From an uncultured Prevotellaceae bacterium (lineage in GTDB: Bacteria > Bacteroidota > Bacteroidia > Bacteroidales > Muribaculaceae): a stretch of DNA of 49,003 nucleotides. Each line of letters opens with the position of its first letter. Position 1 is the first letter of the stretch. This document shows, piece after piece, positions 5,980-25,138 of the stretch. Under the pieces are notes generated by a model. That model was not told the origin of the DNA. It did no database searches and saw nothing but the letters and a program-made list of their open reading frames with translations. The DNA lies in assembly GCA_900318645.1 (NCBI GenBank), contig ONLH01000029.1, positions 1 to 49,003 on the forward strand, read 5' to 3'. A program made the position numbers and the translations under genes.

Positions 5980-6046
5980 ATCAGTTCCAATTTCAGTTTC
6001 TTTATAGTATTTATGTTATCGATAGTTTTAGGTCTATGATTTGCTG

Positions 6047-6533: not shown

Positions 6534-8675
6534 ATGGAAACTGTTTTTTTACATTTTAGATGGGCGCGTAAGTTTGTCCTATTCGTTTTAATGCTGAGTG
6601 TGGCTGGAGTATTTAATGTGTATGCTCAAGATGAGCCTGATCCCGATCCTTATCTGCTTTATCTGTTATTCAACGATTATCAGGCCTGTGAGGAAAAGGT
6701 GCCGCTGAGAGAGTGGAACGGAATTGATGATATCAGATGTCAGCAATTGCCCAAAAATGAGGCTTCAATGCAAGCGTCATGGTATTATCACAATTATGAG
6801 GATAGGACTGCTGGCTTTTTAGCCTTGGCCCAAAACGAGAAAGAGGGCTTCCATGTGTTCTACCGTGAACAGGAAAAAGAGCGCAATCTCAGGATTGAAA
6901 TCAGTCCGTTCACCAATTCCGAGAACGAGGTACTGCCGCATTCGATTTATTGGGAAGACTTCTTCTTTGCTCCAGGCGTTGGCATTCCCGATTCATTGGC
7001 CGAAGCCCTGGTTCCCTATGGCGGTGAAATCCAGAAGAGCATTGTTGGCCACAACAAGGTGTTTTATGTTGAATTGAATTCAACGATGAATCAGACTCCA
7101 GGAGTGTATTATTCAACCGTTTCGGCATTTGATGGAGATGAACTGATCGCATCACGAGCTGTTACCGTTAGGGTCTGGAACTTTGCCTTGCCTGAGAATC
7201 ACTATTCTGAGGTGCTCATGGGTCTCTACAACTGCAATTCGGGCTATCATGCCACCCGGAGCATCTTTGCCTTGAATGGTCTGGAAGTGGCAAGTAATGG
7301 TGACGTGGCCGAGGCCGACTTGCCTCGAGCCAAGGAAATCCTGGATGGCTATCAGGAGTGCTTGCTCGAGCATGGCGTTAGTACATACGAAATTCCTCGT
7401 TGGAAGATGGGCGATGACCGCAAGGCTGCCGAATTGGCCATGGCCGACCCGCGCCGCACGAATTTCACGGTACCGGTACACCGTGGCCACTTCAACATGA
7501 ACACTGGGGACTTCACCGACGCTGCCAAAGAGACCATCAGCCAATATAAAAGCATCGTCTATAATAATCCGTTCTTGAAGGACAAGGCCTTCTTCTACCT
7601 CATGGATGAGCCGACGGGCTCCGAAAGCGAGGTGGCATTGCTGGAGGCCATGTCTGAAAGACTGAATCAATTATGGCCCGGTTATCATGCCGTTGCTCCA
7701 TTCTATGGTAATTTTGAACAGACGACAGAATTGTTTAAGGGAAAGATTGATATCATCTGTCCCAATCAAGGTGCGTTTGACCCCCGCAACTCCAACTATG
7801 ATCTGAAACAAGCCAATTTCCTGAATTTCCAGGACCGTGAGAATCATCCTGAACGATTCCGTACATGGCGTTATCAGGGAGATGGCAAATGTGGTGGCAC
7901 ATACTTCTGGATTTTTAATATCTCACAGCTTGGTGTTATGCGTCGCGTTCCATTCTGGCAGCAGTGGTACATGAACAGTAACGGTTGGCTGCAATGGAAC
8001 TGCGCCTACTTGCCCGTCGATTGGGTGAAGAAAACACTTCCTGCTGCTGGAGGCATTCAGACAGGTAATGGTGACGGCATCCTGATTTACCCCGGAACAC
8101 TGTGGGGCCAGAGTGCCGAAAAGCCTATTACCTCCTTGCGCTTGAAACAAGTGAATGACGGTGTTGAAGACTACGATTACCTCCGTCTGTGTATGGAATT
8201 TGTTGATGAAGCCAGTATGAAATCTGCTGTTTCACGCTTCTTGTGGAATGATTATGCCAACACTTGTAAATCCATCAACAAGGAGTATGAATACTATGCA
8301 GCCTATACTTGCACTTTCCTGCAGCGTGCCCGATATGACTTGGGACAACTGCTGAGTGCCGCCAACACCGAACACAACTGGGGCGAATGGCGTGTCGCCG
8401 TATGGCCCGACATGACACATGATGGTCTGGAAATCCGCACCTGCGTGGACTGTGGAGCGCAAAGCAGTCGAGTTATGTTGTATGAAGGCGGCCTGCTGGG
8501 TGACGTGAATGCTGATCATATCGTTAATATCAGTGATGTTACCGCATTGATCAACGTCATCTTGGGTACTGGTATCAACCAGGCCGTTTCTCCGTATAGT
8601 GATGTGAATGGAGACGGAATGATCACAGTCCTTGATGTCGCAGCACTGATCAACATCATTCTTAGCTCGAATTAA
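6534..8675 (+). CDS. Exported GH123/DUF4091-like glycosidase with C-terminal dockerin-like domain
   Basis: A 713-residue protein with a signal peptide (to about residue 32), a beta-sandwich N-terminal part, a barrel-type catalytic part and a dockerin-like end. MDEP at 357-360 supplies adjacent Asp358-Glu359, matching the Asp-Glu catalytic pair of GH123 N-acetylgalactosaminidases. VNDGVEDYDYL (540-550) is the typical DUF4091 ending motif. Residues of about 620-650 hold a WGEW...CVDCGA module, and 660-713 hold two Ca-binding-type loops (DVNADHIVN and DVNGDGMIT). The likely role is removal of N-acetylhexosamine from host or dietary glycans at the cell surface. The substrate is inferred, not shown. 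Confidence 0.8.
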   Translation: METVFLHFRWARKFVLFVLMLSVAGVFNVYAQDEPDPDPYLLYLLFNDYQACEEKVPLREWNGIDDIRCQQLPKNEASMQASWYYHNYEDRTAGFLALAQNEKEGFHVFYREQEKERNLRIEISPFTNSENEVLPHSIYWEDFFFAPGVGIPDSLAEALVPYGGEIQKSIVGHNKVFYVELNSTMNQTPGVYYSTVSAFDGDELIASRAVTVRVWNFALPENHYSEVLMGLYNCNSGYHATRSIFALNGLEVASNGDVAEADLPRAKEILDGYQECLLEHGVSTYEIPRWKMGDDRKAAELAMADPRRTNFTVPVHRGHFNMNTGDFTDAAKETISQYKSIVYNNPFLKDKAFFYLMDEPTGSESEVALLEAMSERLNQLWPGYHAVAPFYGNFEQTTELFKGKIDIICPNQGAFDPRNSNYDLKQANFLNFQDRENHPERFRTWRYQGDGKCGGTYFWIFNISQLGVMRRVPFWQQWYMNSNGWLQWNCAYLPVDWVKKTLPAAGGIQTGNGDGILIYPGTLWGQSAEKPITSLRLKQVNDGVEDYDYLRLCMEFVDEASMKSAVSRFLWNDYANTCKSINKEYEYYAAYTCTFLQRARYDLGQLLSAANTEHNWGEWRVAVWPDMTHDGLEIRTCVDCGAQSSRVMLYEGGLLGDVNADHIVNISDVTALINVILGTGINQAVSPYSDVNGDGMITVLDVAALINIILSSN

Positions 8676-17043: not shown

Positions 17044-18192
17044 TTACGGTATTAGGCTTGGGCTATCCTTCTCAAAGTCATAATGTAGCATAACCATGTC
17101 GAACAAGATAGAATCTAATGCTTCGGTTGTGATACTGCTCACCTCGGGCCGGAATGAGTCAATCTTCTTATTAAAGTACTCATCCCAATGTCGAGCATAT
17201 TCCACCAAAGCATCATCAACAACCGTAATGTCGCATTCTTTCTCACCTTTTTTAATTAGTATCAGTTCCTCTATCTTGGACTTGATTGCCTCGTCTTCCA
17301 CGGTCGCATCCATAAGTTCTTTGAACGGTATTGGTGGAAGAGACATTTTTTGCTCAATCCACTTGCAAGCCAAAATACCTCGTAGATAATAAAGGAAACG
17401 TTTCATGGGATAACCTTCCTGTTGAAGGTATCGTTCATTGTGCTTATTATAGATATGATTATAATGATACATCAACTTGATGGGATTGAAGTAATTATCA
17501 GCCACACTATTAATCCGTTTGGCGAAATACTCATCCTGACGATAGACTATAGGTGAGTTGAGCCATTCAAGCACTGAAGGATTGCTCTTATAAAGCAACG
17601 ACAACGCTTTCCTCAAATCCCAACCAACCATGTCCAATCGATCATTATACACATATTCAATGGTATCTCGCTGTTCCTCGACCCTGAAGTACCATTCAGG
17701 CTTATGGATATAGATGAAACGCACATCCCAGTCACTATTTTTCGACTCGAATCCCCAAGCACGGCTACCAGACTCAACAGCAAACAAAATCTTTATATTG
17801 TTTTCTTGTTCAAGTTTCCTTAAATGCTCTGGAATTTCATATCTAGCGGTGTGACCCTCGACAAACAGAGGATTTCGTTCCTCACATATCCATCTATGTT
17901 TCGGAGCCCAGAACCTAAGGTCATGAATATATGCCTTGTCAAGAGAAACCCCGTTCTCAAATATCTCAAAGCACCCAGCAAGATACTCTTTTTCAAGTCC
18001 AAATTCTGATAGCAGAATGTAGGAAGCGGATTTCTGCACACTGATGTGGGTCACATGGTATGTCTTCCCGATTTCAAGTTCAGGGTATTCTCCTTTCAGC
18101 CATGAAATATTAGAACGACAAACAGCGGTAAGCGAATTTACCTCGTTATAATAGTCTTTAAGAAGCTTTTCTCTCATATTATTCATAACCAA
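17044..18192 (-). CDS. RlaP/YcgL-type nucleotidyltransferase with unknown N-terminal domain
   Basis: A 382-residue protein. From about residue 128 it matches the RlaP/YcgL nucleotidyltransferase family (PF10127): GSRAWGF (Gly142-Ser143), then DWD (Asp154 and Asp156), the usual GS-x10-DxD metal site of Pol-beta-type transferases, followed by VRFIYIHKPEWYF. The family has been linked by comparative genomics to RNA repair. The first 125 residues form an unrecognised region. The start at 18192 is used, though Met3 (18186) and Met6 (18177) are also plausible. Neighbouring genes point the same way: a DEDDh exonuclease and a HAD of the RNA-repair type. Confidence 0.85.
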   Translation of the reverse strand: MVMNNMREKLLKDYYNEVNSLTAVCRSNISWLKGEYPELEIGKTYHVTHISVQKSASYILLSEFGLEKEYLAGCFEIFENGVSLDKAYIHDLRFWAPKHRWICEERNPLFVEGHTARYEIPEHLRKLEQENNIKILFAVESGSRAWGFESKNSDWDVRFIYIHKPEWYFRVEEQRDTIEYVYNDRLDMVGWDLRKALSLLYKSNPSVLEWLNSPIVYRQDEYFAKRINSVADNYFNPIKLMYHYNHIYNKHNERYLQQEGYPMKRFLYYLRGILACKWIEQKMSLPPIPFKELMDATVEDEAIKSKIEELILIKKGEKECDITVVDDALVEYARHWDEYFNKKIDSFRPEVSSITTEALDSILFDMVMLHYDFEKDSPSLIP

Positions 18193-18239
18193 GAGTTTAG
18201 AAGTTCTTGATTTTTTGTCTTTACTTATAAAAGTGTATT

Positions 18240-20066
18240 CTAAATAATAACGTTAGTAATATCAATTATATCGTCGTCTAATAATTTGAAAAAACAATCT
18301 TTTGTGGCCTTAACATCAGCAAAAGAATCATGTGCATTTTCAAAATTGCGATTGAATAATTTGAAATAAAGCTCTTGAAGTCCTGGATACCTGTATTTAT
18401 TGCGAAAACTTACAATCTTGCAATAATCTACAGTGTTCTTCATTGTACAATATGAAGGGATATTCTTTAAAATATTAGATCTCCCTAACCTCATGAGTTC
18501 TGCAATTATCACATTTTTATCAAAGTCGACATTATGTCCAATGATTAGATCAGCGTGATTAACAGCGTCCTTAAATAAACTAAGTATATATAATAAATCA
18601 TAACCTTTTTCAGTTGCAGATTCATTAGTGATACCATGAATTTTAGTAGCATCTTCTGGTATCCGAAAACCATTAGGCTTAATAACGTAGTCTCCTTCTG
18701 ATTTGATGTTACCACTAAAGTCAGTTAAAACCCAACTGAGCTGAACAATTCTTGGCCAATTATCAACATTATTGATAGTCACGAACTGATCAACAGCAAG
18801 TCCTGTCGTCTCAGTATCAATGAATAATATATTTTTCGATATTGGCAACTGATAACCCAAGTTGCTTTCAATTAGATTAATGTGACTTTTGATGTTATCT
18901 ATATCAAGTCTTCTGCATAAGTTAAATATAGTCTTTTTTTCTGCTTTGTATAAACCGACACTATACAAACTAATTAAATTAAATGCACTCGATTGAGTAT
19001 TTGATTTCTTTAATAGTCTTATGGCTTGTATGGAATTACGTTCAACGCCTTTACCCATTAAATACCTGATGGCAAGCGAATTTAAGGCCTCACCTTCATT
19101 TACGGATTCAAGCCAAGGAATGGGATCATTCTCACAATAGATAGAAGGGCGACCATCGCATTCAAGAAAAAGATGAATCTTTTTTGTTTCGGTTAATTCA
19201 AAATCACGATGCGGCTCTTTTGTGTTATATGATGAGAATTGCCGGCGACTACAATATTTCGAAAACAACCTATCGAGATTAAGAATATTGAGTTTATATG
19301 GTTCAGATTTTGGAATCTTTTGCCCTCTAAAATGTGGTGATTTCTCTGGATCATTTGAGGTGGGCAGAGCAACACAATCAGCAAAATGCAAAATAATCTT
19401 CTTTGATTCCAAACCAGCATCACGCAAATCGATATTCTCCTCAGGACCATATATTTCAATACTATCGTATTCAGAATGTTCTTTATGTAAATTATAAAAT
19501 TTCAGAATTTCCTCACTTCTGAATAGAAGAACAAAATTGCTGCTACAATTGTTATTCAAGATAACCCATTCATAGTCAGATGGAAGGTCAAGCGTCGTAA
19601 GCAAATCGCTTATAGCAACTGTGATTCCATCAAATTCTAATGCGATGTAATCTTTATTGCCAAGGGCAACGCCAACGCCAATTCCACTATATTTATTCCA
19701 ATTATACTCAATAATAGCTTCAATAGAGTCAAGTTGATTGACCGTTTGCATCAAAGAATTAACTGAATTTAGTGGTACTCCGAGCATATTATATACTGAT
19801 GAATAGAATACCAATTCATTTATGCGAAATCTTGATTGAAAAAACTTTTTTAATCTATCAAGGATTTCAAAAATCTTTTGTTCAGAATCGACCTCATACG
19901 AATCAAAAAGCGACTCAAGATCTTTTTTTAAATTATCTTCTGCCAATTCATTTCCAACAAAGTCTAAAACGTTATGCCTCCACGCATAATACATGTCAAC
20001 ATCGTCATCTTGTTTATAATCATTTCCTAGCTCAATGAGCTCATCGATACGTTCAATAATATCCAT
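18240..20066 (-). CDS. DEDDh exonuclease with a novel N-terminal region
   Basis: A 608-residue protein in which the C-terminal quarter is a DnaQ-like DEDDh 3'-5' exonuclease: DTETTG at 417-422 (Asp417, Glu419), GHNVDFDKN for the second Asp, and AHDSFADVKAT for the His and last Asp. Residues of about 322-375 look like two Sel1-type repeats (ALNSLAIRYLMGKGVERN). Residues of about 120-255 resemble an archaeo-eukaryotic primase-polymerase fold, but the metal-binding Asp-x-Asp is altered (IALEFDG), so that part is probably inactive. The ATG at 20066 is chosen over an upstream one at 20105. The gene is strikingly A/T-rich beside its neighbours. Confidence 0.75.
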   Translation of the reverse strand: MDIIERIDELIELGNDYKQDDDVDMYYAWRHNVLDFVGNELAEDNLKKDLESLFDSYEVDSEQKIFEILDRLKKFFQSRFRINELVFYSSVYNMLGVPLNSVNSLMQTVNQLDSIEAIIEYNWNKYSGIGVGVALGNKDYIALEFDGITVAISDLLTTLDLPSDYEWVILNNNCSSNFVLLFRSEEILKFYNLHKEHSEYDSIEIYGPEENIDLRDAGLESKKIILHFADCVALPTSNDPEKSPHFRGQKIPKSEPYKLNILNLDRLFSKYCSRRQFSSYNTKEPHRDFELTETKKIHLFLECDGRPSIYCENDPIPWLESVNEGEALNSLAIRYLMGKGVERNSIQAIRLLKKSNTQSSAFNLISLYSVGLYKAEKKTIFNLCRRLDIDNIKSHINLIESNLGYQLPISKNILFIDTETTGLAVDQFVTINNVDNWPRIVQLSWVLTDFSGNIKSEGDYVIKPNGFRIPEDATKIHGITNESATEKGYDLLYILSLFKDAVNHADLIIGHNVDFDKNVIIAELMRLGRSNILKNIPSYCTMKNTVDYCKIVSFRNKYRYPGLQELYFKLFNRNFENAHDSFADVKATKDCFFKLLDDDIIDITNVII

Positions 20067-20124
20067 AAAGTAAAAAGTATTTTGTGCTGTTTTATTATGA
20101 TGCAAAATTACTGGTTTTAAATCA

Positions 20125-20646
20125 TTAAAGCAAATCTTCTAATCCTTTTAGTATGTAAATGATTCTCTTTGCATCTTCTTCAGTAATGCCAACTCTTGGG
20201 TCAGTTTGGACGAAATGAGACTCCTGTTCGGGTAGTATGTCAGGCACGTCGTCAAGGATGGCGTAGTGGGTCACTTCGCTTCCTTTATTGTTGAGCCATT
20301 CCTTGATTTCGCTGCCTTTTACAGCTGGAATATCCATATAGTTGAGATCAATGCTCAACAGCATCTCGTCGCTCTCTGTGTTAGGAGTTATGTCAATAAC
20401 TTTGCCAGGCAGACCCCTTCGGATCCACATCCGTTGCATGGCATCGAGTCCCCAAAGTTTCCATGACGAGGAAATCACGATGTCGGCACCAGTTTCCTCC
20501 AAGATTCTCTTTAGGTTGGTGACAGCTTCAGGGTCGAAGGCATAGCCGAACCCGTCAACTGGGGAAATTTCTTCGTTGACGCAGCGGTCGTGCTGCCGTT
20601 CAGTATTCAACACACCGTCAATATCCAAGAATAAGATTTTCTTCAT
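20125..20646 (-). CDS. HAD-fold phosphatase of the RNA-repair type
   Basis: A 173-residue protein starting MKKILFLDIDGVLNTE, a HAD motif I with Asp7 and Asp9. It has SSSWK as motif II and YAILDDVPD as the final acidic motif. The pattern closely resembles the HAD domain of Swiss Army Knife RNA repair proteins (PF18143), which remove 2'/3' or 5' phosphates at damaged RNA ends. It lies 58 bases upstream of the exonuclease gene and 98 bases downstream of the next gene's stop, all on one strand, which supports a joint role. It has no fused kinase or ligase. Confidence 0.75.
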   Translation of the reverse strand: MKKILFLDIDGVLNTERQHDRCVNEEISPVDGFGYAFDPEAVTNLKRILEETGADIVISSSWKLWGLDAMQRMWIRRGLPGKVIDITPNTESDEMLLSIDLNYMDIPAVKGSEIKEWLNNKGSEVTHYAILDDVPDILPEQESHFVQTDPRVGITEEDAKRIIYILKGLEDLL

Positions 20647-20670: not shown

Positions 20671-21243
20671 TTATTTGAGTAGTTCGGAGTCATGCAGGTC
20701 ACTTGGGGCTACCACCAGCTGATTTTTGTCGATGCCGCGTTTGGTGAGGACTTTATCCAGCCCACTGATGACATAGTCGCTGACGGGGCGAGGCTTGCAG
20801 AGTTCCACGCCGAGTTGCCGCTTGTAGATGTCATAGACAAGTTCCGAGCAATACCACTTGCCGTTATTGAACTTGAACGCAAGGTCGTAGGGTTTGCCCA
20901 GGTATTTGGAGTACTTGATTTTGATGGGCTCCTCGGTGTAGCGTTTCACGCTGACACGTTTACCTCGGCCTCTCTCCATCCATTGCTGATAAGGAGTAAG
21001 ACTTACTGTGGAAATAGCCTCAAGGACGTACAGACCATCGGGTTTCTCGATGATGATGCCACAATGGGACCACTGTGACTTGGTAGCCAGAATGATATAT
21101 TTCGACTGTGGTGACTTGGACGTCTGGAAGACGATATCACCTTCCTTCAACGCACTGGCAACTGGAGCAGGCTGATGTTTGAACGACTGAACGCCCACTA
21201 ACACCAATAGCAGTAGAGATGTAAATTCAATGATCCTTTTCAT
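20671..21243 (-). CDS. YiiX-like exported papain-fold cysteine hydrolase
   Basis: A 190-residue protein with an uncleaved-or-cleavable signal (about 1-28) and the permuted NlpC/P60-like motifs of the YiiX/YebB family: SHCGIII (His60), EAIS, and KWYCSELVYD with catalytic Cys132. The family hydrolyses amide or thioester bonds in the envelope. It sits at the end of the run of small membrane proteins (21280-22241) and just upstream of the HAD gene, so it may belong to the same transcript. The substrate is unknown. Confidence 0.8.
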   Translation of the reverse strand: MKRIIEFTSLLLLVLVGVQSFKHQPAPVASALKEGDIVFQTSKSPQSKYIILATKSQWSHCGIIIEKPDGLYVLEAISTVSLTPYQQWMERGRGKRVSVKRYTEEPIKIKYSKYLGKPYDLAFKFNNGKWYCSELVYDIYKRQLGVELCKPRPVSDYVISGLDKVLTKRGIDKNQLVVAPSDLHDSELLK

Positions 21244-21279: not shown

Positions 21280-21525
21280 TCATACCACAGGCGATTGATT
21301 TTCATCTTGCCGGGAACGGCGTTTCTTATGATAACATTCAATGATATACTCAGCTAGCCAGACAAATCCAGATATTAATGTTATAAGCACTGAAACTAAT
21401 CCAATCATGTAGGCGATCAATATAGATGGGCAGCAGCCATACGAGCTATCATCTATCAGTAGAAGCATCAGGCAAAATAGGCTTATCATCAGAGACACAA
21501 CAAATGGATTTTTAGCTGTACTCAT
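21280..21525 (-). CDS. Small membrane protein with two helices
   Basis: An 81-residue protein with hydrophobic segments at about 8-25 and 35-62 and a highly basic tail (YHKKRRSRQDENQ). No family was recognised. It starts 3 bases after the stop of the 177-residue membrane protein, within a tight minus-strand run, and so is presumably co-translated with it. Confidence 0.6.
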   Translation of the reverse strand: MSTAKNPFVVSLMISLFCLMLLLIDDSSYGCCPSILIAYMIGLVSVLITLISGFVWLAEYIIECYHKKRRSRQDENQSPVV

Positions 21526-21528
21526 TTA

Positions 21529-22062
21529 TTAGGTCGTTATATATTTCTTGGATAGCCACAAGCGATTAAGAATCCACTTGCGGGGGATGGTAATTTCAAA
21601 CCAGATCCACATTACGAGGGCAATAGCTAGGAACAAGTAGCAATAGACCCATAGATTGACTTCTGCATAGGTCATACCGAGCTCGTTAGCCATTATCTTC
21701 AGGTCTTGGGCACAAGCAATGAATTTGTCATGAACAGTATCAAGCATGATAATAGTTCCTGAATCATGCCCCGAAATCCGATAGCTGTAGAACTGATAGA
21801 AGAGTTTTGCAAAGATGCTGAAGACTATGGTCGCCCCAGTGGAAAGCGCCAGGTTGATGGTATTCCACAAGGTTAGCTTCTTTATCCAGTTATACAGAGC
21901 AACCAGTGCAATTACCGTTGGCATCGCAACACAGAGTGCCGGCCATACGTAGATGCAGATATACACGCTGGTTTCCTCGTAGGTAAAGCCGAAAATCAAG
22001 CCGAACAGATAGAGCATTACACAAAGGAATCCGAAAATGAGATATGAGAAAGTGGTCATCAT
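21529..22062 (-). CDS. Membrane protein with about four helices
   Basis: A 177-residue integral membrane protein with hydrophobic segments at about 5-28, 34-58, 66-88 and 138-155, and a hydrophilic loop (about 90-130) before the last helix. No family or motif was recognised. Its ATG overlaps the stop of the upstream 60-residue gene (ATGA at 22059-22062). With the neighbouring small membrane proteins it may form a small membrane complex expressed with the archaemetzincin-like lipoprotein upstream. Confidence 0.65.
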   Translation of the reverse strand: MMTTFSYLIFGFLCVMLYLFGLIFGFTYEETSVYICIYVWPALCVAMPTVIALVALYNWIKKLTLWNTINLALSTGATIVFSIFAKLFYQFYSYRISGHDSGTIIMLDTVHDKFIACAQDLKIMANELGMTYAEVNLWVYCYLFLAIALVMWIWFEITIPRKWILNRLWLSKKYITT

Positions 22063-22241
22063 TTTTTTAGAGCTTTAATTGTGAGTGATACGATCCAGCG
22101 GATGGCTGAGATGAAAAGAACCAAAATAATAGCATAAAAGCTTAGAGTGAATGCGACGAGTTCAATGTCATCGTCAAGGTGAAACGTGGCATGTTCGGCC
22201 ATCGTTATCATTGATTGTGCGACTTCAAATAATGTTTCCAT
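22059..22241 (-). CDS. Short single-helix membrane protein
   Basis: A 60-residue protein with one strong hydrophobic segment (about 26-54) after a charged N-terminus and a short Lys-rich end. It overlaps the next gene by four bases, so it is translated with it. It starts 54 bases after the stop of the archaemetzincin-like lipoprotein, close enough for one transcript. No family was recognised. Confidence 0.55.
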   Translation of the reverse strand: METLFEVAQSMITMAEHATFHLDDDIELVAFTLSFYAIILVLFISAIRWIVSLTIKALKK

Positions 22242-22295: not shown

Positions 22296-22964
22296 TTAGT
22301 TTGGGATTTGGCGAGAGCAGGTTTCGCAGAAGTGGCGCTGTGGCATGAGGTTAGGTTTGCCATTGGCATCCACCATGAAGCAACTGCTGTCGTTGTTGGG
22401 ACAGTGGGGAAGTCCCAGGAAGCCATGACCGAACTCATGCAGGACAACCTTCCAGAACTGTGATTTGTCCTTCACCCTGAAAGTGGAAATCACACAGTTA
22501 GATTTTTTGAGATAGGATAGTCCCAAGATACCCCAATCACTATACCCGTGAATCGATGTTGAGATGTCCTCATTGGTCAGCCCGATGACAACGTCACCAG
22601 GCTGCTTGATCATGCCTTGCTGCTGATCGAGGATTTTGCTGGCACGATAGCGAGTCTTAGCGTCGTTCATCAGTTCTACAGTCAGTGTCTTGTTTGGAAG
22701 GACTTTGACCTGGGTCACAGCAAGCCCCTTCATGTGCTCGTTTAGAGCACCTTCCAGTTGCTTAGACGCCTCCAATGCCTTGGCTTGTGAAAAGTCATTA
22801 TAAGGCTGAATAATTATCGTGCAATGCGGGCAAGTGCATTCTGCCACCTCTGTACTGTCCGATATGAGTTTGACATTTTTTATTCGTTTAGCATTGTTGC
22901 TGCAACTCCAGGTAGCACAGCCAATCAACAGAGCGAATGATAGTATAATCAGATGTTTGTACAT
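22296..22964 (-). CDS. Archaemetzincin-like zinc protease lipoprotein
   Basis: A 222-residue protein with a lipobox (FALLIGC, Cys16) and the active-site signature VLHEFGHGFLGLPHC: HExxHxxGxxHC with three zinc His and the trailing Cys. It then has SSCFM, and further on FCETC. These make the four-Cys set of archaemetzincins (family M54), but here the first two spacings differ slightly (6 residues between HC and the next Cys, and about 15 before CxxC). An outer-membrane or periplasmic protease is expected. It has its own ECF-type promoter at 23001-23030 and precedes the membrane-protein run at 22241-21280. Confidence 0.8.
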   Translation of the reverse strand: MYKHLIILSFALLIGCATWSCSNNAKRIKNVKLISDSTEVAECTCPHCTIIIQPYNDFSQAKALEASKQLEGALNEHMKGLAVTQVKVLPNKTLTVELMNDAKTRYRASKILDQQQGMIKQPGDVVIGLTNEDISTSIHGYSDWGILGLSYLKKSNCVISTFRVKDKSQFWKVVLHEFGHGFLGLPHCPNNDSSCFMVDANGKPNLMPQRHFCETCSRQIPN

Positions 22965-23000
22965 AATTTAAGTTGATGGTTTAGTTTTGTCATTTTATTC

Positions 23001-23030
23001 TTTATGTCAGTCAAGGGAAAAAGGTAAACA
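23001..23030 (-). promoter_or_regulatory. ECF-type promoter motif, site 1
   Basis: On the minus strand: TGTTTACCTTTT, an 11-base spacer ending in G, then ACATAAA. The same 30-base layout occurs at 23536-23565 and 25109-25138. It lies 36 bases upstream of the archaemetzincin-like gene. Confidence 0.7.
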
Positions 23031-23071
23031 GATGTAACTGCCTTTTTCTTGGGAAAGAGTATAAATCGGTT

Positions 23072-23503
23072 TTACGCAGTTTGCCGCTCCGATTTCTTGA
23101 CGTAGATGTACTTGGGGTAGCGTCCAAGGACGAAAAGGGTAACAGGGCAGAGCCAAATTTCACGTTCAAACCCTGGCAGATTGGTTACGGTATAAATTGA
23201 TCCTCCAGTGAGAGAGTGCTCGCCCTGGACCAAGCAGGCATACTCTGGCATCTCGAGTCGCTTGTTGCTGGGAACCACATTAACGAAGGCATAACAGTCG
23301 TCATCGCTGAGGAAGGCACACAGCTTGTCGGCGCCTGCCACCATCATCAGATTATGATGGTCAAATGGCCATCCGGGGAAATCCACATACCAGAAACCAT
23401 CTTCTTCATGGTTAAACTGGAGATTGTACTCACGACGACGTCCGAAAACGCTGCTTGCCATCACTTGTGCTCCGTGGAGCAAATCATTAACATTGTAATT
23501 CAT
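23072..23503 (-). CDS. Small cytoplasmic protein, possibly DUF6717-like
   Basis: A 143-residue protein with no signal peptide or membrane segment. The pattern DGFWYVDFPGWPFDHHNLMMVAGADKL recalls DUF6717-type domains, in which a Trp and a short acidic turn are followed by FVxGxD-like sequence; a later WLCPVTLFVLG supports a common fold. This is recognition of a pattern only. It has its own copy of the shared promoter at 23536-23565, so it belongs to the same regulon as the sigma factor and the protease. Confidence 0.6.
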   Translation of the reverse strand: MNYNVNDLLHGAQVMASSVFGRRREYNLQFNHEEDGFWYVDFPGWPFDHHNLMMVAGADKLCAFLSDDDCYAFVNVVPSNKRLEMPEYACLVQGEHSLTGGSIYTVTNLPGFEREIWLCPVTLFVLGRYPKYIYVKKSERQTA

Positions 23504-23535
23504 AATCGATGTATTTAAAAGATTGGTGTTATTTC

Positions 23536-23565
23536 TTTATGTCAAAATGGGGCAAAAGGTAAACA
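23536..23565 (-). promoter_or_regulatory. ECF-type promoter motif, site 2
   Basis: On the minus strand: TGTTTACCTTTT, an 11-base spacer ending in G, then ACATAAA. It starts 33 bases upstream of the start codon at 23503. The match to site 1 is complete in both conserved blocks. Confidence 0.75.
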
Positions 23566-23597
23566 TCAATAATGCTATTTGCTTGATAATAAACGGA

Positions 23598-23635
23598 TTG
23601 CCTGCCTGGCCAGGATTTGGTGGCTCAGCAGGCAA
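23598..23635 (-). terminator. Hairpin after the anti-sigma gene
   Basis: TTGCCTGC (23598-23605) pairs with GCAGGCAA (23628-23635) across a loop that itself contains CTGGCCAG. It lies 27 bases beyond the anti-sigma stop and separates the sigma/anti-sigma transcript from the next promoter. Confidence 0.6.
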
Positions 23636-23661
23636 AACCTTAAAAATCTAGTTATGTGAGA

Positions 23662-24462
23662 CTACTGTTTGAGTTTCTGGAGCAGGGTGGTTGCGCGTTC
23701 TACCAAGTCGCTATTTTGGCCATCCGCTATCAACTCATTCAATTCTTTGATGGCATTCTCCTTATCATTGGCTTTGAGGTAAGCCAGTGCTTTATACCAA
23801 TGGGTGCAATCGTTGAAATTGTCAGTGGTATTCTTGATTTCTTCTTCATTATCATCAGCTCCCTTGGGGCCATGTTTAGCCGTTGGCCATTCAAGGTTAT
23901 CAATATCACTTAATACAGCCATCATGTCCTTGCTGCGGCCCTTCTTGATCTGTTGCCTGATTGAGACGAATTCATCAGGTTCGCTGCTAAAAGGTTTGTT
24001 GTATTCATCGGCAAGGCTAGCCAATGTGGGTTTTGTCGGCATTTTGGTCACCTTCTGTTCTTTCGACGCTTCCTTTGCCAATTCAGTGTGTTTGGAATTT
24101 TGTACAGAAACAGAGGGCATGTACAAGTATAGGCTATAAGCAACGATGGCGACAGCAGCGATTCCTGATGCCCATTTCATGAAAGACCACATCGGGGTAT
24201 TATTCTTTTTGGCTCGTGTCGCTTGGATGAACTCTTCACGATTCATCTGCTTGATAGCGTCGAGTTGAGCCTGGCCTTCTCGCTGCATACCGGCTTGAGC
24301 TATCCCTTTAACGACAATGGCTGTGGCTACGAGTCGTTCTCGTAGTTCTTGATTATTATCAACGTCCTGTTCAAATGCAGTACGTTCGCTCACATCCATT
24401 TGGTTGCGAAGGTAGCGGTCAATCCGCTCGTCATATTCAATATATCTTTCTTCTCGCGTCAT
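23662..24462 (-). CDS. Probable membrane-anchored anti-sigma factor with helical-repeat C-terminus
   Basis: A 266-residue protein. Residues of about 5-45 are an acidic helical segment (YDERIDRYLRNQMDVSERTAFEQ) of the type at the N-terminus of Bacteroidetes anti-sigma proteins. A single membrane helix runs at about 95-117. After it is a Lys-rich linker and a C-terminal helical part (about 205-265) that resembles TPR repeats (WYKALAYLKANDKENAIKELNELIA). The start at 24462 overlaps the sigma factor stop by four bases (ATGA), typical of a sigma/anti-sigma pair. It likely holds the sigma factor at the membrane until a signal from outside releases it. Confidence 0.75.
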   Translation of the reverse strand: MTREERYIEYDERIDRYLRNQMDVSERTAFEQDVDNNQELRERLVATAIVVKGIAQAGMQREGQAQLDAIKQMNREEFIQATRAKKNNTPMWSFMKWASGIAAVAIVAYSLYLYMPSVSVQNSKHTELAKEASKEQKVTKMPTKPTLASLADEYNKPFSSEPDEFVSIRQQIKKGRSKDMMAVLSDIDNLEWPTAKHGPKGADDNEEEIKNTTDNFNDCTHWYKALAYLKANDKENAIKELNELIADGQNSDLVERATTLLQKLKQ

Positions 24463-25052
24463 GATCTCATATTTTTGAGGAATTCCTCCATTGCGGTTTT
24501 TACTTTGGTCATACAACGGCTTTTTTGCGTTGTAGCTACACGGGCATTGTTGTAGTTCATCACGGCGGCAATCTCCGTCATGTTGTTGCCTTCCCAATAA
24601 TAAGCCCACAAGATGGTCTTGCATGGTTCAGTCATATTAGTGACGATATCATAAACGGCACTTTGTAACTCACCTTGCTCTTCCATGCTATCTATATTCA
24701 GCCAACGGTCAATTGCTTCTTGAGCAGTGCCGATATCTACAGGGTCAATAACATCATCAGCGCTTTGACCTGACTGATTAGGGACGGTGGCAAACTTTGA
24801 TTTGTCCCTATGTGCTTCTAATCCTTTCTTTTTTAATATACCGATCACGTATGTCTTCAGACTACTAGTTAATCTGGTCAAAGTCCCATCATGGACTTTC
24901 TCAAACGTGACCAACATAGCCTCCTGAGTCAAATCCTCGGGAGACAATTTTGATGAGCCAAAACGCTTGCGTGCCTCTTGCAACACAGCCAGACGGACAT
25001 CTTCAAGGAATCTTCTATCGGTTTTAAATGGAGCTTCTGGCATTGATATCAT
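24459..25052 (-). CDS. ECF-type RNA polymerase sigma factor
   Basis: A 197-residue protein of the ECF layout. Region 2 is at about 20-90 (SPEDLTQEAMLVTFEKV), with a linker and region 4 at about 132-185 with a helix-turn-helix (MTEIAAVMNYNNARVATTQKSRCMTKV) for binding the -35 box. It is followed with a 4-base overlap by the probable anti-sigma gene. It is preceded at 25109-25138 by the same bipartite motif as two downstream genes, so it probably activates itself. The Met at 25052 is used; Met4 at 25043 is also possible. Confidence 0.85.
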   Translation of the reverse strand: MISMPEAPFKTDRRFLEDVRLAVLQEARKRFGSSKLSPEDLTQEAMLVTFEKVHDGTLTRLTSSLKTYVIGILKKKGLEAHRDKSKFATVPNQSGQSADDVIDPVDIGTAQEAIDRWLNIDSMEEQGELQSAVYDIVTNMTEPCKTILWAYYWEGNNMTEIAAVMNYNNARVATTQKSRCMTKVKTAMEEFLKNMRS

Positions 25053-25108
25053 TTTTTATCAATAGCAAAAGTAGCATTTTTTTCTTAAAATCAGGATTCA
25101 TACACTCA

Positions 25109-25138
25109 TTTATGACAATATATATCAAAAGGTAAACA
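25109..25138 (-). promoter_or_regulatory. ECF-type promoter motif, site 3 (sigma gene)
   Basis: On the minus strand: TGTTTACCTTTT, an 11-base spacer ending in G, then TCATAAA. This differs from sites 1 and 2 only in the first base of the last block. It lies 57 bases upstream of the sigma gene start. Confidence 0.75.

Follow-up and report, generated by a model that had tools for sequence, protein, structure and literature searches.

A probable locus-bound ECF-type sigma factor regulon with exchangeable cargo genes in an uncultured Prevotellaceae bacterium

A stretch of 49,003 nucleotides from an uncultured Prevotellaceae bacterium, a gut-type member of the Bacteroidales (assembly GCA_900318645.1, contig ONLH01000029.1; the whole stretch is called the window below) carries a gene group predicted to form a regulon of an extracytoplasmic function (ECF) sigma factor. 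The group comprises a sigma factor gene, an overlapping gene for a putative anti-sigma factor, a gene for a DUF6717 protein and an operon headed by a gene for an archaemetzincin-like lipoprotein; all window features given here are on the minus strand. The sigma factor (24459-25052, 197 aa) was assigned to the ECF family using its NCBIfam match to TIGR02937 (54.7 bits, over the cut-off of 42.9, residues 13-187) and the alignment of its relatives; by comparison with the relatives, the start may be the ATG at 25043 instead. In Pfam, it matched Sigma70_r2 alone, under the cut-off (19.1 bits for 24), and the Pfam scan gave no region 4 match. Proteins were considered as ECF sigma factors if they combined sigma-70 regions 2 and 4 in about 160-200 aa with no region 3, a domain content found in the window's sigma through TIGR02937.

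The start of the putative anti-sigma gene (23662-24462, 266 aa) overlaps the sigma stop codon (ATGA). Gene overlap, hydropathy and an AlphaFold2 model were used for its assignment, and the predicted layout is one of N-terminal helices, one transmembrane-like (TM-like) stretch at about residues 100-118 (hydropathy) and a C-terminal helical domain resembling tetratricopeptide repeats (TPR). The N-terminal half of the model is poorly predicted; from residue 151, 10 of the 12 10-residue blocks have a pLDDT (predicted local distance difference test) of 73-93 and two of 54-55. Weak TPR matches were obtained in Pfam, NCBIfam and fold searches, the fold search with the model giving nothing at E <=0.001 and weak TPR-type matches only.

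The DUF6717 protein (23072-23503, 143 aa; PF20475, E 6.8e-21) has no TM-like stretch by hydropathy, and its predicted structure was set aside as too poor for use (mean pLDDT 35.5). The archaemetzincin-like lipoprotein (22296-22964, 222 aa) carries the lipobox LIGC (by inspection) and the zinc motif HEFGHGFLGLPHC, which exceeds the canonical spacing by one residue in all four metzincin copies, with the cysteines present. Its best NCBIfam match was NF033823 (E 7.3e-22; 78.1 bits, under the model cut-off of 145), its score against Pfam M54 was just short of the threshold (23.7 bits for 24.4), and the archaemetzincins of PDB entries 4axq and 3zvs were matched at E about 5.5e-5. Next come genes for small proteins with TM-like stretches by hydropathy: 60 aa with one stretch (22059-22241), 177 aa with three and with homologues in relatives (21529-22062), and 81 aa with two (21280-21525). 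The last gene of this run (20671-21243) encodes a YiiX-type permuted papain-like amidase/peptidase with an N-terminal signal-like stretch, placed in family C92 by the PF05708 domain (E 1.5e-22, 80.8 bits for a cut-off of 27) and matching PRK10030 at E 1e-42, under that model's cut-off.

A 30-bp element, TGTTTACCTTTT-N11-[AT]CATAAA, was found with exact matches and identical spacing at three places, which are annotated as candidate ECF-type promoters: promoter 1 (25109-25138, TGTTTACCTTTT...GTCATAAA) before the sigma/anti-sigma operon, promoter 2 (23536-23565) before the DUF6717 gene and promoter 3 (23001-23030) before the metzincin operon, at 56, 32 and 36 bases, respectively, from the gene start. 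A G precedes [AT]CATAAA at all three sites. Outside the fixed blocks, pairs of sites agree at 3-5 of 10 spacer bases and at 10-14 of 40 flanking bases, and recent duplication is unlikely because spacers and flanks agree at most weakly. The original prediction, made from the sequence of this stretch, had named three such minus-strand elements with a spacer ending in G and with otherwise unrelated spacers, and had placed them before the sigma/anti-sigma pair, an orphan protein at 23072 and the metzincin, with small membrane proteins after the latter. All of this was recovered; the orphan protein belongs to the DUF6717 family.

Mismatches in the element were counted over its 18 fixed bases. When up to 3 mismatches were allowed, the window gave no further match, and dinucleotide shuffles of the window (n=100) gave a mean of 0.01 matches. 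The own genome (3,604,421 bases in 75 contigs, 91% complete) contained no site outside the window's three at 0, 1 or 2 mismatches; at 3 mismatches there were 7 extra sites versus 3 for the reversed control, and by inspection the GTTTACC core is broken in all 7. When the search was restricted to the positions invariant among relatives (GTTTACC-N14-GNCATWAA), exact matches were limited to the same three sites, with 1 more site at one mismatch versus 5 for the reversed control.

Relatives of the sigma were searched in a sample of 101 genomes of the genus, and a sigma was considered as close at E <1e-50. Close sigmas were present in 8 of the 101 genomes (called the window clade below), and three more genomes had one at E 1e-20 to 1e-18. 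With at most one mismatch, the motif occurred at 20 sites in 10 genomes, all 8 close-sigma genomes included, for 1 site with the reversed control. Sixteen of these sites are at the sigma locus; this number includes two in genome G016, whose contig probably adjoins the sigma contig at one end. Another site, in G072, is separated by about 13 kb from the more distant sigma of that genome, and the remaining three are away from any clade sigma. The motif, whose search in the genome and its relatives had been proposed as a check, is thus not frequent at unrelated genes. Two identical motif-like sites with one mismatch (5988-6017 and 6797-6826 of locus L054, genome G097) are near genes for RtcB and for leucine-rich repeat (LRR) proteins, with no close sigma.

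A second list of sites, distinct from the genus-wide one, was established on nine loci of the 8 close-sigma genomes using up to 3 mismatches and the original spacing. It holds 20 sites, versus 0 for the reversed motif and a mean of 0.1 in 20 shuffles. GTTTACC, the G, CAT and AA are invariant among them, and position 28 is A in 16 and T in 4. When any spacing from 6 to 26 was allowed, all 20 pairs of GTTTACC and GNCATWAA had a spacing of 14. In each of the eight genomes, one site, equivalent to promoter 1, lies before the sigma operon; the other 12 sites are found ahead of cargo or a cargo remnant. At the sequence level, the autoregulated two-block promoter that is also expected of an ECF sigma was therefore found, with a single spacing, at all eight sigma operons. 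A possible housekeeping -7 element, TAnnTTTG (TACTTTTG, 25066-25073 in the window), lies downstream of the ECF promoter and ahead of the sigma start; we take this pattern to be the housekeeping -7 consensus. Of the 8 sigma-operon leaders, 5 have it in the stretch from motif to sigma start, for 0 of the 12 cargo leaders (counted with no shuffle control), which suggests that the regulator may have a basal promoter and that the cargo may be under sigma control alone.

Behind this constant promoter, the cargo is exchanged from locus to locus. The metzincin gene is present at 4 of the 8 clade loci (G000, G015, G016 and G069), the YiiX gene at 5, plus a truncated frame in G069, and the DUF6717 gene at 3, plus a remnant recognized by eye in G069, while the promoter of G058 and G059 is followed by a membrane protein from another family. 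Because gene content varies (metzincin in 4/8, DUF6717 in 3/8), the zinc protease is regarded as a swappable cargo and not as the definition of the system. In G069 (locus L049, 9131-9308), two promoter copies start 148 bases apart with the by-eye DUF6717 remnant between them. In G084 (locus L050, near 9596), the lipoprotein leader of a YiiX-type protein closely resembles the one on the metzincin (...IWSCGNNAKRIKHVEF), which would be explained most simply by a deletion fusion that kept the promoter. Extra cargo at L047 10150-10623 and L042 8511-8990 shows weak CHAP-domain similarity under the Pfam cut-off (E 0.003 and 0.01), and a transglutaminase-like reading of L042:7267-7806, made by eye only, was abandoned as unsupported by Pfam.

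DUF6717 was evaluated as a marker of the system and rejected, being present in 30 of the 101 genus genomes, mostly with no motif and away from the sigma. Its dispersed copies were used as a control: the 28 returned DUF6717 loci away from the promoter cluster had 0 motif sites at <=3 mismatches, and the best upstream match at these loci, allowing 11-13 bases between blocks, had 4-8 mismatches. At a further place on the G016 sigma contig, 12 kb away, the best match had 6 mismatches. The three DUF6717 genes at sigma loci have 0-1 mismatches in the upstream motif. A genome of another family, G622, contains three sigma homologues and three dispersed DUF6717 genes (L165, L167 and L168), each with a TGTTTACC-like upstream element (1-3 mismatches, with a block distance of 11 or 13 bases instead of 12). 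A pattern search at <=3 mismatches gave 7 sites in G622 (1 reversed) and 6 in its relative G766 (2 reversed), a hint that this link may also exist in dispersed form, as a possible dispersed regulon.

For a wider view of the sigma subfamily, 397 genomes of the family (genus included) were searched, with a sigma match defined as E 1e-20 or better; 31 genomes had one. The exact pattern TGTTWACCTT-N14-CATWAA was found at 33 sites in 17 genomes, 12 of them with a sigma match (reversed control, 5 sites). Among the motif genomes with no sigma match, G401 and G268 have sites adjoining genes of CHAT clusters on short contigs, and no sigma or CHAT link was seen in G264, G258 and G054, the surroundings of G054 being outside the examination. 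Relatives from the wider subfamily often have a caspase, a membrane anti-sigma-like protein and TPR-CHAT proteins encoded with the sigma; the gene order seen among them is caspase, sigma, anti-sigma, CHAT, with motifs before the CHAT operons and other cargo. Pfam confirmed Peptidase_C14 in G072 and CHAT in G072, G073 and G046; the remaining caspase and CHAT labels come from profiles built on these clusters. Forty sigma loci, the best-scoring ones of the genus, family and order searches and not all of them, were examined: a caspase gene lies within 6 kb of the sigma at 15 of these and a CHAT gene at 16. Caspase and CHAT are both missing within 6 kb of the sigma at all 8 window-clade loci, the contig of G016 ending 943 bases away. 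In the own genome, at its 91% completeness, there was no CHAT match, and its one caspase gene lies on a separate contig, in different gene surroundings. Large CHAT-bearing clusters at L103, L104 and L105 contain several motif-preceded runs of small function-unassigned proteins, with caspase and sigma in L103 and L104.

Ten caspase-linked family loci were then ranked by sigma score, leaving out L111 (no caspase) and L114 (caspase, remote sigma). With the window's own motif at <=3 mismatches, 14 sites were found in 7 of the 10 loci, versus 2 reversed and 0.2 shuffled, and the promoter form at these 7 loci is mostly TGTTAACC. Two loci found through the motif itself had 4 sites versus 0. In a tree of the sigmas, the 8 window-clade sequences group together (95/99), in a half that also holds 11 caspase-linked rows; four further caspase-linked rows are in the other half, and the root is a midpoint only. 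As far as a midpoint root can indicate, this topology fits a window lineage that has lost its caspase/CHAT module or had it replaced.

We consider it highly probable that the locus is a signalling cassette of an ECF-type sigma and a membrane anti-sigma, with a regulon confined to its own neighbourhood, and the comparison of relatives strongly supports such a small locus-bound ECF regulon. The motif, its uniqueness in the genome, its fixed spacing, its conservation, its co-occurrence with the sigma and its position before swapped cargo were observed computationally, and the promoter and regulon steps of the proposed mechanism have strong comparative evidence; we infer from these data the promoter function, the anti-sigma function, the release of the sigma, the signal and the output. 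At rest, the anti-sigma, anchored by one transmembrane helix and with its TPR-like domain outside the cytoplasm, would hold the sigma. A signal outside the cytoplasm would inactivate the anti-sigma, probably by proteolysis, and the freed sigma would guide RNA polymerase to GTTTACCTTTT-N10-GNCATWAA. It would thereby raise its own operon in a positive feedback, this operon possibly having a weak housekeeping promoter as well, and would turn on the DUF6717 gene and the operon of the metzincin-like lipoprotein, the small membrane proteins and the YiiX-type amidase. The induced gene set is predicted to act at the cell envelope. The regulon first proposed, in which the sigma activates itself, its regulator, a zinc protease and a membrane-protein set, stands at the sequence level (motif only at the locus, sigma/anti-sigma overlap, operon) with the zinc protease removed from its defining parts, its gene being found at 4 of 8 loci.

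Several results weigh against this interpretation. Three of the 20 genus sites (G060:C4 and two in G097) have no clade sigma gene nearby, and in G058, G059 and G060 a small open reading frame separates promoter and sigma. The anti-sigma was assigned from its place in the gene order, the overlap with the sigma gene, its topology and a weak match to NF052375 (E 0.026). Three of the 10 caspase-linked loci have no site at <=3 mismatches, two of them being cut by contig ends, and L111 and L114 hold none at this threshold either. At the order level, four caspase loci gave 3 sites (2 reversed, 0.05 shuffled) and sixteen other loci 1 site (2 reversed, 1.1 shuffled), so that the promoter appears conserved in the near subfamily and not demonstrably among the most distant homologues. 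Lastly, the whole interpretation is based on sequence comparison.

Other explanations of the repeats and of the locus were compared with the ECF cassette. The repeats could be binding sites of another transcription factor, or a variant of the housekeeping promoter, to which the neighbouring sigma is incidental. The sigma and the motif are linked here by sequence comparison, and a possible housekeeping -7 element, found 3' of the motif in 5 of the 8 leaders of the sigma operon, would agree with such a variant. This is nevertheless judged unlikely: at <=1 mismatch the motif is found in 8 of 8 close-sigma genomes and is absent from 91 of the 93 others, its two blocks are arranged as -35 and -10 elements at a single spacing, the housekeeping element is missing from all 12 cargo leaders, and more distant sigma homologues are accompanied by a related form of the motif. 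A recent duplication, or a mobile repeat with no regulatory meaning, is an extremely improbable origin of the three copies; three exact 18-base matches within 2.1 kb speak for it, but the spacers and flanks agree at most weakly, the sites are kept across diverged relatives before different genes, and the element is not spread over the genome.

The locus could also be an immune or programmed-death system resembling CASP-sigma, in which a protease senses invasion and cuts the anti-sigma, the sigma is freed and the cargo genes are the effectors. Such a precedent exists in type III-E CRISPR (clustered regularly interspaced short palindromic repeats) systems, where Csx30, which inhibits the ECF sigma CASP-sigma, is cleaved by the TPR-CHAT protease Csx29 (PMC10028731); the frequency of caspase (15/40) and CHAT (16/40) genes within 6 kb of the sigma also favours it. 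For the window it appears doubtful, as a search that did not extend to cas genes found neither protease gene within this distance at the 8 clade loci, the own genome gave no CHAT match and has its single caspase elsewhere in a different gene setting, and PADLOC gave no match at E 0.01 for the sigma, anti-sigma, DUF6717, metzincin, 177-aa and YiiX-type proteins.

RpoE-RseA and SigW-RsiW are classical ECF sigma/anti-sigma pairs with regulated proteolysis. The window cassette resembles them in having a sigma and a putative membrane anti-sigma in one operon and predicted autoregulation, and differs from them by a regulon confined to one locus, by the C-terminal TPR-like domain of the anti-sigma and by protease-type cargo. 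Compared with the archaemetzincins of family M54 (PDB 4axq and 3zvs), the window's metzincin is alignable over residues 82-219, with HE..H and a Cys-rich tail, but has a lipoprotein signal and HEXXHXXXGXXHC instead of HEXXHXXGXXHC. A CHAT protein of a relative matched nothing among PDB sequences at E 0.01.

According to PMC10028731, the motif of CASP-sigma is matched strongly at three places within the locus of this sigma, one of them before a gene for a predicted membrane protein. On this basis the likeness to the window extends to an ECF sigma, a (here putative) inhibitor encoded nearby, three own-locus motif matches and a membrane-protein target, and, for caspase-linked relatives of the window's sigma, to TPR-CHAT proteins beside them. 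The differences are that the window's putative inhibitor is a one-TM protein with a TPR-like domain and that the clade has no CHAT gene near the sigma (0/8 window-clade loci within 6 kb for the TPR-CHAT protease of type III-E). In outline, the window's subfamily thus appears similar to CASP-sigma, which is the nearest parallel described, membership not being claimed. Sigma-70 genes in metacaspase operons (PMC3501461) and EACC2-caspase neighbourhoods with an ECF sigma and a TPR protein (PMC8195603) are reported in the consulted parts of these papers and share with the caspase-bearing relatives the linkage of caspase and sigma genes; this subfamily's promoter, its anti-sigma with CHAT and its metzincin-YiiX-DUF6717 variant differ from the descriptions in those parts.

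A literature search found no paper on DUF6717 or on an archaemetzincin with a sigma factor, and a search combining caspase, CHAT and ECF sigma found none on this sigma subfamily, with bioRxiv and most subscription papers outside the coverage of both. The initial statement that no system of this make-up is described is accordingly retained for the gene set, and is given up for the combination of an own-locus ECF sigma with a protease, which PMC10028731 describes for type III-E. The original prediction is partly supported, being largely right but not unprecedented.

As a tentative extension, Bacteroidales might widely carry CRISPR-free sigma cassettes whose caspase and TPR-CHAT proteases target a membrane anti-sigma and thereby free an ECF sigma that controls exchangeable cargo, the window being a derivative in which caspase and CHAT were replaced by other protease-like cargo. 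The promoter read by the sigma in such a family would be GTTWACCTT...CATWAA, a part of the same joint and tentative claim. If it is true, CASP-sigma would be one CRISPR-coupled version of a wider type of circuit. The sigma subfamily is tied to caspase and CHAT proteases, and its branches with and without caspase offer a natural comparison of whether the proteases act upstream, by cutting the anti-sigma, or downstream, as output. At the window's locus itself, the promoter and the regulator predicted here and the few genes listed with them could be tested together as a single unit.

Further along the same strand of the window, 17044-20646 holds an RNA-repair-like trio of genes (RlaP, a protein with an RNase T/DEDDh exonuclease domain, and HAD_SAK_2). 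It starts about 25 bases past the YiiX gene, and transcription of the metzincin operon might continue into it.

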